DNA of 39,878 nucleotides, from NCBI RefSeq assembly GCF_001467625.1, contig NZ_LNYB01000026.1, positions 1 to 39,878 on the forward strand, read 5' to 3'. A program made the translations under genes and the position numbers. Positions within the stretch are counted from its first letter, which is position 1. Each line of letters begins with the position of its first letter. Of this stretch, positions 26,154 to 31,198 are shown in pieces. The notes beneath the pieces are model-generated. The model ran no database searches, was not told where the DNA came from, and saw only the letters and a list, made by a program, of their open reading frames with translations. This DNA comes from Legionella feeleii. Its GTDB lineage: Bacteria; Pseudomonadota; Gammaproteobacteria; Legionellales; Legionellaceae.

Positions 26154-27222
26154 TGGCACTCTCTTTCAAGGGAAAGCGATTGGTGCAAAAACCCACGCCG
26201 TGGGAGAGATGGTCTTTAATACTTCACAAACAGGCTATCAGGAAATTTTGACGGATCCGTCCTATTTTGGCCAAATTATCAATTTTACAACACCCCACCT
26301 CGGCAATGTCGGTGTGAATCAAGCCGATCATGAATCAGAAAAAATCCATGCCGCAGCGGCCGTGTTCAGAGACTATTCCCCTCATTTTAGTAACTGGCGC
26401 GCACAAGATAGTCTGGAGAATTTTCTTCTGAAACATCATATTGCTGCCTTGACGGAGATAGATACTCGCGCACTCACCCTGCATTTGCGTGAACAAGGCA
26501 GTCAAAATGGTTGTATCGTGACCGTCGATTCCATCACGCCTGACCAGGCGCTGTCGATGCTGCAAAGTGCGCCAACCATGCAAGGCAGTCATCTGGCAAC
26601 CTTGGTTTCGACCAAAAAAGCGTATCTCTATGCTGATCCCATCGATGCGTTAGCGCATATTGTCGTTGTTGATTGTGGCGTTAAGACAGCCATTTTAAAA
26701 ACCCTGGCAACCTACCCTATCAAAATTTCAGTAGTACCCGATACGATTAGTTTTAGCGAATTAACAAGCTTTTCTCCTGACGGGGTATTACTCTCTAATG
26801 GACCAGGCGATCCGGAAAGTTGTGAGTCAGTCATTCATTTGGCCTCTCAATTATTAGAGCAACAAATCCCTGTCTTTGGCATTTGCCTGGGCCATCAGAT
26901 TTTAGCGCTGGCAGCCGGTGCAAAGACCAGGAAAATGAAATTTGGCCATCACGGTGCCAATCACCCCATTAAATGCTGTAAAACCGGTACTGTCTTTATT
27001 AGCAGCCAGAACCACGGTTTTGTCGTCGATGAACGCTCATTACCCGAGCATTTAATCACTACTCATATTTCCTTATTTGATGGAACAATTGCCGGACTTG
27101 CCCATCGCAATGCCCCCGCCTTTTCCTTTCAAGGACATCCAGAAGCGAATCCAGGACCTAACGAATTGATGATCCTGTTCAAGCAGTTTTTTCACGAGGT
27201 GCAGTATGCCAAAAAACACTAA
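26131..27222 (+). CDS. carA: carbamoyl-phosphate synthase small subunit
   Basis: 363 aa. It is the glutaminase that feeds ammonia to the large subunit. The N-terminal CPSase-SC domain has FNTSQTGYQEILTDPSYFGQI. The class I amidotransferase domain has Cys252 in FGICLGHQ, His336 and Glu338 in GHPEA. AAGGAG lies before the ATG inside argH. It overlaps carB by 17 bp. Confidence 0.97.
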   Translation: MAFLILADGTLFQGKAIGAKTHAVGEMVFNTSQTGYQEILTDPSYFGQIINFTTPHLGNVGVNQADHESEKIHAAAAVFRDYSPHFSNWRAQDSLENFLLKHHIAALTEIDTRALTLHLREQGSQNGCIVTVDSITPDQALSMLQSAPTMQGSHLATLVSTKKAYLYADPIDALAHIVVVDCGVKTAILKTLATYPIKISVVPDTISFSELTSFSPDGVLLSNGPGDPESCESVIHLASQLLEQQIPVFGICLGHQILALAAGAKTRKMKFGHHGANHPIKCCKTGTVFISSQNHGFVVDERSLPEHLITTHISLFDGTIAGLAHRNAPAFSFQGHPEANPGPNELMILFKQFFHEVQYAKKH

Positions 27223-30200: not shown

Positions 30201-31198
30201 CTTATGAAGCATCTGCAATGATGGTACAAAGTCTTTGCCATAACCGTGCAGAAGAACCTTTTGTCAAACCGTTGCAAAAACTCTATCAGCAAATCAGGCA
30301 TCCTTCGAAAACCAGGCATGTTTTAACAGGGATGGAACTCAACAAGCAGGATATCCTGACGATCCTGACGCTAGCCAAATTAGTGAAAGAGAAACCAGAA
30401 AATTATTCTGGTGCCTTGTTACATAAGAATCTGGCCATGATTTTTGAAAAACCCTCTTTCCGGACCCGCTTAAGTTTTTCTCTTGCCATGCAAAGCCTGG
30501 GAGGTACCGCTGTAGAAAGTGTCAGTACGACCCGAAAATCGGAAGAACCACGGGACCTGGTCCGAGTATTAAATGGTTATTGCGATTTCATTATGGTACG
30601 AACTCATGATGATCAGGGGTTGGAAGAAATGGCGACTTACGCCAACGTCCCTATTATCAATGGATTATCCGCCTTGTATCACCCTTGCCAGATCCTTGCT
30701 GATTTGCTGACCCTACAGGAATACTTCGGTACCTTGGCCGGTTTAACGTTGGCCTATATTGGCGATGGTAATAATATTCTTCATAGTCTGTTATTAATGG
30801 CACCCCAACTCGGCATAACAATAAACTATTGCTGTCCCGCAGCCAATCAACCTAATGAGGTGCTTCTTGCCAAGAGCTTGGAGGCGACGCCTGGAATGAT
30901 TCACAGTCATTCAACACCGGAAACAGCTGTTCGTGACGCTCACGCAGTTTATACAGATGTGTGGACAAGCATGGGATTTGAGCAAGAAACCGACGAGACT
31001 TCATTTACTGAGTTTCAGGTGAATGAAAAACTCATGGCTCATGCCAAGCCAGAAGCTATTTTTATGCATTGTATGCCAATGGTTCGTGGTAAAGAAGTCT
31101 CTGTAACCCTGCCAGACGAACCTGCAGCCGCTTTGTTTACCCAAAGTGAAAATCGCTTGCATGTGCAAAAAGCCTTGCTGCTTTTTTTACATGCGTAA
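27206..31198 (+). CDS. carB: CarB-ArgF fusion: carbamoyl-phosphate synthase large subunit joined to ornithine carbamoyltransferase
   Basis: 1330 aa in one uninterrupted frame; normal CarB is about 1070. Residues 1-935 are the two ATP-grasp halves (first GSGPINIGQACEFDYSGTQA, second GSGPNRIGQGIEFDYVCVKA). About 936-1030 is a shortened MGS-like allosteric domain: the start (KIVFTSGFAKNDPLLITLANAGF) and end (FALQHHIPYASTYEASAMM) align, but the middle that binds UMP/IMP in E. coli is missing. About 1037-1330 is a complete OTCase: RHVL start, SFRTR at 1084-1088 for carbamoyl phosphate, HPCQ 1159-1162, DVWTSMG 1251-1257 for ornithine, HCMP 1288-1291. OTCase homology begins before the first possible internal Met (1043), so this is a true fusion. 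It should make citrulline with possible channelling. Confidence 0.95.
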   Translation: MPKNTNIKSILVIGSGPINIGQACEFDYSGTQALKALREEGYRVILVNSNPATIMTDPDLADATYIEPITTASVSAIIAKERPDALIATLGGQTSLNCALALHKEGILAQHQVELIGASINAITVAEDRTLFHEKMKEIGLNVPESYSANSLDSAKQIMQNLGLPLIVRSSFTLGGAGAAVVHSEEEAIAAFKQAFSQPGCEEISIDEALIGWKEFELEVVRDKKDNCIVVCGVENFDPLGIHTGDSITVAPIQTLTDDEYQAMRDAAFAVLRAVGVDTGGSNVQFALNPKNGRMVVIEMNPRVSRSSALVSKATGFPIAKIAAKLAVGYTLDELPNEITGGILPASFEPSIDYTVVKIPRFHDEKFNAQDLARGPQMRSVGEVMAIGSTFAESLQHAILSLEINASGFDSLDELDDHALKVLLKRHTSTHLWCLAESFRRGFSIEEVHAASFIDPWFLHQIKTIVTMEQNLSGQSLYDLDQTTLLTLKKNGFSDQRLAKLIHSTEAEVRSYRQELGIQPVYKCVDSCAGEFRTATAYLYSTYQQYCESTPGTKSKIMLIGSGPNRIGQGIEFDYVCVKAMQAFAKAGFETIMVNCNPETVSTDYDVADKLYFLPLTYEKVRDLIEHEKPTAVVLQFGGQTPLNLVDKLHQDGVPLLGLTAELVNITEDRDKFRDLIVQLGLKQPKNQAITTLDELDQVLETLGFPLIIRPSFVLGGRGMEIVANKESLVAKLKTLFKTTSHAVLLEEFLTGAIEVDIDAVSDGDDIFIPTVLEHIEAVGVHSGDSACITPPYKLPLAITNLLHKQTKILARALKLKGLMNVQFAVKGAEVFLIEVNPRASRTTPFICKATGIPLIEIAVNCMLGISLKEQRCLTPVTLPYYCVKEAVLPFRKFSTSTPVLSPEMKGTGEVMGIGLTPHEAYLKAQIAAGNHCDEQNAKIVFTSGFAKNDPLLITLANAGFTLIDELQPGKNPDLILVVDAHLDFLSFALQHHIPYASTYEASAMMVQSLCHNRAEEPFVKPLQKLYQQIRHPSKTRHVLTGMELNKQDILTILTLAKLVKEKPENYSGALLHKNLAMIFEKPSFRTRLSFSLAMQSLGGTAVESVSTTRKSEEPRDLVRVLNGYCDFIMVRTHDDQGLEEMATYANVPIINGLSALYHPCQILADLLTLQEYFGTLAGLTLAYIGDGNNILHSLLLMAPQLGITINYCCPAANQPNEVLLAKSLEATPGMIHSHSTPETAVRDAHAVYTDVWTSMGFEQETDETSFTEFQVNEKLMAHAKPEAIFMHCMPMVRGKEVSVTLPDEPAAALFTQSENRLHVQKALLLFLHA

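Follow-up and report, generated by a model that had tools for sequence, protein, structure and literature searches.

Partial channelling of carbamoyl phosphate between a carbamoyl-phosphate synthase (CPSase) and an aspartate carbamoyltransferase (ATCase) carried on one chain has been reported for CAD of animals and for the fungal CPSase-ATCase (PMC6022934, PMC6245113). E. coli has one CPSase for both the arginine and the pyrimidine pathway, under the control of uridine monophosphate (UMP), inosine monophosphate (IMP) and ornithine (PMC6245113), and fungi have an arginine-dedicated CPSase beside the pyrimidine one (PMC6022934). The same two papers describe an association of the carbamate kinase-like CPSase of Pyrococcus with ornithine carbamoyltransferase (OTC), and channelling in Thermus (PMC6022934, PMC6245113). 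Here we describe a gene from Legionella feeleii in which the CPSase large subunit, CarB, and OTC (ArgF) share one reading frame. It lies on contig NZ_LNYB01000026.1, the whole 39,878 nucleotides of which are the window analyzed, and quite probably encodes a bifunctional, arginine-dedicated CPSase large chain-OTC that is blind to pyrimidines and activated by ornithine.

The fused gene and its catalytic residues

The gene (27206-31198, plus strand) is a single stop-free frame of 1330 codons with an ATG start, whose product would be near 146 kDa judged by its length, and both enzymes in it score above curated cut-offs, which bears out the CarB-ArgF fusion proposed in a first-pass annotation made from the sequence alone. 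NCBIfam CarB models match residues 1-946 and 2-964 (NF003671, 1395.5 bits against a cut-off of 599; TIGR01369, 1308 against 1027), and OTC models match residues 1035-1328 and 1037-1328 (NF001986, 327.5 against 306; TIGR00658, 288.9 against 280.85), with narrower OTC models staying below their own cut-offs. ATCase models also remain below cut-off (133.4 against 263; 124.6 against 236.95). A Pfam scan agrees on both parts (OTCace and OTCace_N for the second) and gives no MGS hit between them. The first-pass annotation had credited the frame with a whole CarB catalytic part; this is present, but the description was an understatement, as the entire CarB is there with a shortened C-terminal allosteric domain.

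At the E. coli CarB positions that we take to be the ATP-grasp ligands, site 1 is identical throughout (11/11) in all ten aligned fused rows, and site 2 is identical at 10 of its 12 positions, the others being Asp753, which is Glu in all ten rows, and residue 754, which is variable in ordinary CarBs as well. The OTC part is likewise whole, its four predicted signature motifs being found at residues 1084 (SFRTR), 1159 (HPCQ), 1251 (DVWTSMG) and 1288 (HCMP), so that SxRT, HPxQ, DxxxSMG and HCxP are all represented; the last of these we take to be an OTC motif. SxRT, HPxQ and SMG are described as OTC motifs (PMC8517447). The closest solved structures are E. coli CarB 1bxr (residues 1-933) and OTCs such as 1a1s, and a CarB from an E. 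coli record is 55.9% identical to the fused protein over residues 1-931.

Opposite changes in the two CarB proteins

The C-terminal MGS domain, with its UMP/IMP pocket, is a regulatory feature that is dispensable for catalysis. Its Ser948-Thr1042 span (E. coli numbering) is 95 residues long in E. coli and 55 in the window's fused CarB; across the 13 fused rows it measures 54-55 in 11, 61 in G307 and 68 in G030, while the domain core and the extreme end of CarB are kept. The Lys993 column is deleted in all 13, Thr974 is replaced in all 13, and Lys954, replaced in the window, survives in a single row. Eleven rows have a deletion at Thr977, one has Cys and one has Ser; since gap columns shift slightly between the two alignments that we made, one may show a replacement at this column where the other shows a deletion. 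UMP control depends critically on Thr977 and Lys993, and ornithine is bound by Thr1042 (PMC6245113). The column of Thr1042 holds Ser or Thr in 13/13 fused CarBs, in which an MGS domain with a UMP/IMP pocket is not found.

The window's genome encodes a second, ordinary CarB (a 1076-residue frame, 57% identical to the fused one), and the family's ordinary CarB is 86.5% identical to that of Legionella adelaidensis, in keeping with the family being Legionellaceae. Residues 892 and 993 were compared in 52 ordinary CarBs out of a family of 143 genomes, to which 24 genera contributed one to three genomes apiece, g26 contributed six and the genus of the window 14. They were also compared in 91 CarBs from elsewhere, namely 11 unnamed ones of the class or phylum and 80 named loci, almost all with Pseudomonadota in their titles. 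Lys993 is retained in 51 of the ordinary family CarBs (16/16 and 35/36, with Arg in G032) and in all 91 others. Glu892, which we take to be an ornithine ligand in the E. coli CarB structures, is present in 13/13 fused CarBs and in 90 of the 91 others, as against none of the 52 ordinary family copies (0/16 and 0/36), each of which has Leu or Met; in L. adelaidensis it is Leu. Read from the sequences, both catalytic cores of the fused gene are complete, its UMP/IMP pocket is deleted and its CarB ornithine contacts are kept; the ordinary CarB shows the reverse at one contact (892), and the two inputs combined in E. coli CarB seem to be split between the two CarBs of the family.

An OTC search of the window's genome returns one match at 1e-25; apart from it there is a single transcarbamylase-like match, at 28% identity, which its weak score leads us to read as a putative ATCase. 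The earlier interpretation was sound as to the fusion and, by homology, the two activities, but it missed the pocket deletion, the second CarB and the amino-acid transporter operon in a genome with no argB or argC over the cut-off. The UMP/IMP deletion, the second CarB of opposite pattern and the transporter operon bear more directly on function than does channelling, which that interpretation had offered as the reason for the fusion.

The junction

The CarB part extends to the end of that protein, the window's VKPLQKLYQQI aligning with the last stretch of E. coli CarB; some six residues follow, and RHVLTG then begins the OTC part (RHVL at residue 1037). The frame of this linker is kept in every whole fusion copy. 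It had been argued that these are not two overlapping genes, and the stop-free frame and the weak ribosome-binding matches at the junction starts bear that out. The further argument, that OTC homology begins before the first internal Met, stands in so far as the first Met after RHVL is six codons on, but in-frame ATGs also occur 31 and 32 codons ahead of the OTC start, as does a TTG 14 codons ahead. The best ribosome-binding match among the window's in-frame starts near the junction is three bases, and no junction-region start in the nine whole family genes has a match of more than four, whereas the starts of carA and carB are preceded by AAGGAG and GAGGTG (read by eye).

Against the nearest relative, G004, the ratio of non-synonymous to synonymous substitution rates (dN/dS) is 0.067 for CarB, 0.18 for the MGS remnant and 0.097 for OTC; in the five other relatives compared, silent sites were near saturation. 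The proportion of non-synonymous differences (pN) in five more distant relatives is 0.12 for CarB, 0.34-0.40 for the MGS remnant and 0.18-0.19 for OTC. These values indicate that all three parts of the fused gene, through the junction, are under purifying selection.

Distribution of the fusion

The first-pass annotation had suggested looking for CarB-OTC fusions in relatives and in other bacteria, and such a search was productive. Within the family the fusion occurs in 13 of 143 genomes, from three genera; nine copies are whole (G000, the window's genome, and G004, G005, G011, G012, G013, G014, G030 and G059), three are cut by contig ends (G015, G018, G060) and one has a broken frame (G021). 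Among the whole copies is that of the one-contig genome G013. A search of the order returned the same 143 genomes, and the complete OTC list, covering 57 family genomes, contains no further long frame of fusion size. Among the matches listed for a class sample of 369 genomes the fusion appears in G000 and in G307, from another order, and among those listed for a phylum sample of 398 genomes in G000 alone; whole fusions rank first by bits in these samples, while a contig-end-broken one could be hidden, and a fusion in reverse domain order, or one distant in sequence, could escape the searches. The order of G307 is represented by two genomes, one bearing the fusion and the other without a match; that of G146, also with two genomes, has no fusion.

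None of the 80 loci listed from named genome contigs matches past residue 1080, although close relatives of the window could be missing from this set. Viral contigs gave no OTC relative and two CarB-like loci (P0001). Four of 600 plasmid records have a place covering at least 80% of the fused query; the plasmid matches listed include three of these, one being a single CarB-like piece, while each of the other two combines a pair of pieces across about 6 kb, a spacing from which we take them to be separate genes. Searches of the open-access literature listed no paper with a CarB-OTC fusion in its title or the opening of its abstract, and the review passages seen mention none.

Two candidates were set aside. 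G040, with a CarB match cut at residue 687, had appeared to add a fourth genus, but its CarB groups with ordinary CarBs; a frame of 1368 residues in G315 proved by tblastn to hold CarA and CarB and no OTC. In G021 (L168; 340 contigs, 87% complete) the same operon is present with both the binding protein and the fused gene frame-broken, which may reflect sequencing error or decay.

History of the fusion and other arrangements of OTC

The fused CarBs (12 rows) form one clade and the ordinary family CarBs (11 rows) stand apart, each with a Shimodaira-Hasegawa-like approximate likelihood ratio (SH-aLRT) of 100, in a quick tree without bootstrap in which the joining of G030 and G307 is flagged as long branches meeting. 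The group's OTCs also hold together as a clade (100/100) when set against 12 outgroup OTCs, yet within it the fused OTCs are no clade: in a tree of 68 rows free and ArgH-fused OTCs nest among them. Monophyly of the 12 fused OTC rows was rejected (approximately unbiased test, p-AU 0.027) on a reduced tree lacking 14 rows (four long or broken ones, two of them fused, and ten near-identical free ones), with the proviso that the test was chosen after the first tree and that the outgroup is attached by a long branch. Since the fused CarBs are one clade while unfused OTCs nest among the fused ones, the fusion looks old and often lost. Of the histories considered, a single fusion followed by repeated loss of carAB appears to agree best with the two trees; it is also possible that OTC was joined several times to one CarB lineage. 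Taken as comparative sequence evidence, these observations indicate that the CarB-OTC fusion is real, selected, old and patchily kept.

The neighbourhood of OTC was read in 51 of the 57 OTC-bearing family genomes, comprising 13 with CarB-OTC, seven in which ArgH and OTC share a frame and 31 with free OTC. The six outside this count (G074, G076, G080, G081, G087, G092) have OTC frames of 370-389 residues, too short for ArgH-OTC. In the seven relatives concerned (G078, G105, G108, G084, G088, G073 of g26 and G124 of g29; loci L159, L160, L162, L171 and L210-L212) argH and OTC are joined by a short linker where carA-carB would lie, an apparent argininosuccinate lyase-OTC fusion, with a separate start possible in each.

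G001 has OTC fragments only, beside argR and a binding protein. Twenty free OTCs are preceded by an open stretch with a recurring NTFVINLQQA-like motif (L161, L213-L217, L219, L221, L227, L230-L235, L241-L245; one residue differs in L231 and L244), and their start codon is ambiguous. In 14 relatives (L161, L213-L217, L219, L228-L230, L241-L244) OTC adjoins the binding protein and the fetched stretch contains no argG or argH, so the end point there may be citrulline or ornithine, not arginine.

The operon and the arginine pathway

The fused gene is the last of an operon (Table 1) in which genes for a binding protein, a permease and an ATPase are followed by argG, argH, carA and carB-OTC, with the frames overlapping from argG on and with argR divergent. 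The binding protein's best model, below cut-off, is of the lysine/arginine/ornithine type. argG and argH adjoin carA-[carB-OTC] in 11 of the 14 fused loci, the order in G030 and G307 being carA, carB-OTC, argG, argH; the remaining three loci (G015, G059, G060) are cut off by a contig end inside carB or carA. Scored against a presumed ARG-box consensus, the tandem sites over the argR start are part of a set of 24 scoring at least 13/16 in the whole window. Pairs 20-21 bases apart, with scores of 12-14, occur in seven of eight relatives scanned; in G084 no such pair is found among its top three sites.

Table 1. Features of the fused gene and its operon in the window.
Feature	Position	Strand	Evidence
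argR-like repressor, divergent from operon	21084..21593	-	TIGR01529 81 vs 130 (below cut-off); Pfam Arg_repressor and Arg_repressor_C above cut-off
Tandem ARG-box-like sites, over start of longest argR frame	21556-21573, 21577-21594	.	13 and 14/16 consensus matches, 21 bases apart
Periplasmic binding protein, family 3	21664..22407	+	TIGR01096 161 vs 256 (below cut-off); Pfam SBP_bac_3
ABC transporter permease, polar amino acid type	22395..23042	+	TIGR01726 75 vs 42 bits; Pfam
ABC transporter ATPase, polar amino acid type	23023..23679	+	NCBIfam models shown all below cut-off; Pfam
argG, argininosuccinate synthase; 13-base overlap with longest argH frame	23689..24900	+	NF001770 585 vs 334
argH, argininosuccinate lyase (longest frame); 23-base overlap with carA	24888..26153	+	TIGR00838 556 vs 279.5
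carA, glutaminase subunit; GICLGHQ motif; 17-base overlap with fused gene	26131..27222	+	TIGR01368 450 vs 307 bits
carB part (aa 1-935): both ATP-grasp halves and oligomerisation domain	27206..30010	+	NCBIfam, Pfam, site residues
Shrunken C-terminal MGS (allosteric) domain, aa 936-1030	30011..30295	+	Alignment; no Pfam MGS hit
Linker, about 6 residues, CarB end to OTC	30296..30313	+	Alignment with E. coli CarB and other fusions
OTC (ArgF) part, aa 1037-1330 and stop	30314..31198	+	NF001986, TIGR00658, Pfam OTCace/OTCace_N

The window's genome gives weak matches to argB and argC and none over the cut-off, so that ornithine is probably not made by the usual route; in controls the same scan exceeded the cut-off in 14/14 and 13/14. 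Both genes score above it in three of the 22 genomes of the genus (G012, G018, G021), all of which bear the fusion. From this gene content, imported ornithine probably feeds the operon. L. pneumophila is without many of the early-step genes and yet can convert ornithine or citrulline to arginine (PMC3920079), and the operon looks like this Legionella ornithine/citrulline salvage route plus a dedicated CPSase.

Some further features surround these genes. Between the fused gene and a tandem array lies a cysteine-rich frame of 74 residues with a lipoprotein-like start (31393-31617). The array itself (31887-32342) consists of four copies of a 117-base unit with 96% matches, each copy holding a lipoprotein-like, cysteine-bearing frame of 34 residues, and AAGGAA, which by eye resembles a ribosome-binding site, stands ahead of copies 2-4. 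Another open reading frame, 28677-29054, lies inside the span of the fused gene on the same strand in a different frame.

Proposed function and the alternatives

We propose that CarA, encoded by the preceding gene, and the CarB part would use glutamine, bicarbonate and two ATP to form carbamoyl phosphate; the OTC part, held to CarB by the short linker, would carbamoylate ornithine, and ArgG and ArgH of the same operon would complete arginine. The fused enzyme would be insensitive to pyrimidine feedback and would be activated by its own second substrate, ornithine; ArgR would repress the gene, and the ordinary CarB would serve pyrimidines. Import is the probable source of this ornithine, and the operon's own transporter may be the importer. 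The active site of OTC needs the trimer (PMC8517447), and because OTC acts as a trimer, each OTC trimer of the fused protein should hold three CarA-CarB units around it. Carbamoyl phosphate could pass directly from CarB to OTC. More tentatively, and with less than even odds, the whole could be a bacterial counterpart of CAD on the arginine branch: an OTC-trimer hub with three CPSases, ornithine as both activator and substrate, carbamoyl phosphate formed only at the place and time at which ornithine is ready for it and kept off the pyrimidine pool, and the common CPSase control of gammaproteobacteria split by the reciprocal loss of one allosteric input from each CarB.

Several observations weigh against a dedicated, ornithine-activated enzyme. 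A literature search for Glu892 in ornithine binding listed no paper with that residue, and the ornithine-side positions 783, 791 and 1042 are kept in ordinary and fused CarBs alike, so that the claimed loss of the ornithine site rests on one residue. G146 and G206, from other families, combine Gln892 with a free OTC, and G146 shows no second CarB; moreover, family members without the fused CarB must supply OTC from an ordinary CarB with Leu or Met892, so loss of Glu892 is no bar to a role in arginine synthesis. In G307 (94% complete) the fused CarB is the only CarB match at 1e-40, which means that it may serve pyrimidines too, or that pyrimidines are imported. There is no second carA within the 1.5 kb flanks examined, no genome-wide search for one having been made. 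Of the parts of the fused gene, the MGS remnant is under the weakest constraint, the bootstrap of the 68-row OTC tree had not settled, and G307 has AGGTGA, a six-base match, about five bases before an in-frame TTG nine codons ahead of OTC, making an internal start possible in that genome.

This last point bears on the idea that the frame is cut in the cell, by an internal translation start or proteolysis, into separate CarB and OTC. The ATGs ahead of the window's OTC start and the existence of free OTC genes in relatives are in its favour, but the poor ribosome-binding matches at the junction of the nine whole family genes, the shortness of the linker and the frame kept in every whole copy leave it quite improbable. 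A draft of 90 contigs and the broken frame of G021 might raise the suspicion that the fusion arose in assembly or annotation or is peculiar to one strain; this is refuted by independent genomes, nine whole family copies including that of the one-contig G013 plus G307, and its probability is close to nil.

A merely convenient fusion, in which co-translation equalises the amounts of the two enzymes with no channelling or special regulation and the MGS domain has lost its use and decayed, is the strongest of the alternatives. The MGS remnant does evolve fastest of the three parts, and OTC is unfused in 31/51 and ArgH-framed in 7/51 of the neighbourhoods read, indicating that no one partner is needed. 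Decay sits poorly, however, with a deletion that leaves 54-55 residues in 11 of 13 rows and spares the domain core and CarB end, and with an ordinary CarB in which every one of the 52 family copies compared has changed at Glu892; we regard this explanation as rather unlikely. That the OTC part runs in reverse, by phosphorolysis of citrulline, or acts on another amine and makes no arginine, is very improbable: putrescine and acetylornithine carbamoyltransferase models do match it, and 14 family genomes have OTC beside the binding protein and neither argG nor argH within the stretch retrieved, but those models score below cut-off, OTC models being the only transcarbamylase models listed that exceed theirs; the OTC motifs are present, argG and argH accompany most fused loci, and no carbamate kinase was found among the operon proteins scanned.

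Comparison with known systems

The arginine-dedicated, fused enzyme proposed here is close to CAD and the fungal CPSase-ATCase, in which a CPSase synthetase and a trimer-forming transcarbamylase using its product likewise share one chain. The first-pass annotation had drawn this parallel, placing the fusion on the arginine branch, and the comparison holds. It differs in that the transcarbamylase is OTC, not the ATCase of CAD, that there is no dihydroorotase, that CarA is separate, that the host is bacterial and that the nucleotide pocket is deleted. In E. coli and most Gram-negative bacteria carAB and argF/argI are separate, and their products catalyze the same two reactions with the same catalytic residues, whereas here there are two CarBs with split features and OTC is fused to one of them. 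Bacillus also has an arginine-specific CPSase. Those of fungi are likewise dedicated to arginine, and the passages seen mention no OTC fusion (PMC6022934). Pyrococcus and Thermus resemble the present case in bringing a maker of carbamoyl phosphate and OTC together, but they do so non-covalently and in thermophiles, and Pyrococcus uses a different enzyme to make carbamoyl phosphate. ArgH(A) of marine gammaproteobacteria, in the same class, is reportedly a fusion of arginine-pathway enzymes as well; its partners differ from those of CarB-OTC.

The nested losses, with OTC fused, re-fused to ArgH, free or gone, would amount to a replicated natural experiment on why pathway enzymes fuse and part, and the pair of CarBs to a textbook allosteric enzyme dissected by nature, the fused copy lacking the nucleotide site and the ordinary copy lacking what we take to be an ornithine contact. 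The fusion of a CPSase to a transcarbamylase is known for pyrimidines; the arginine version described here follows the same logic on the other branch, and in bacteria.

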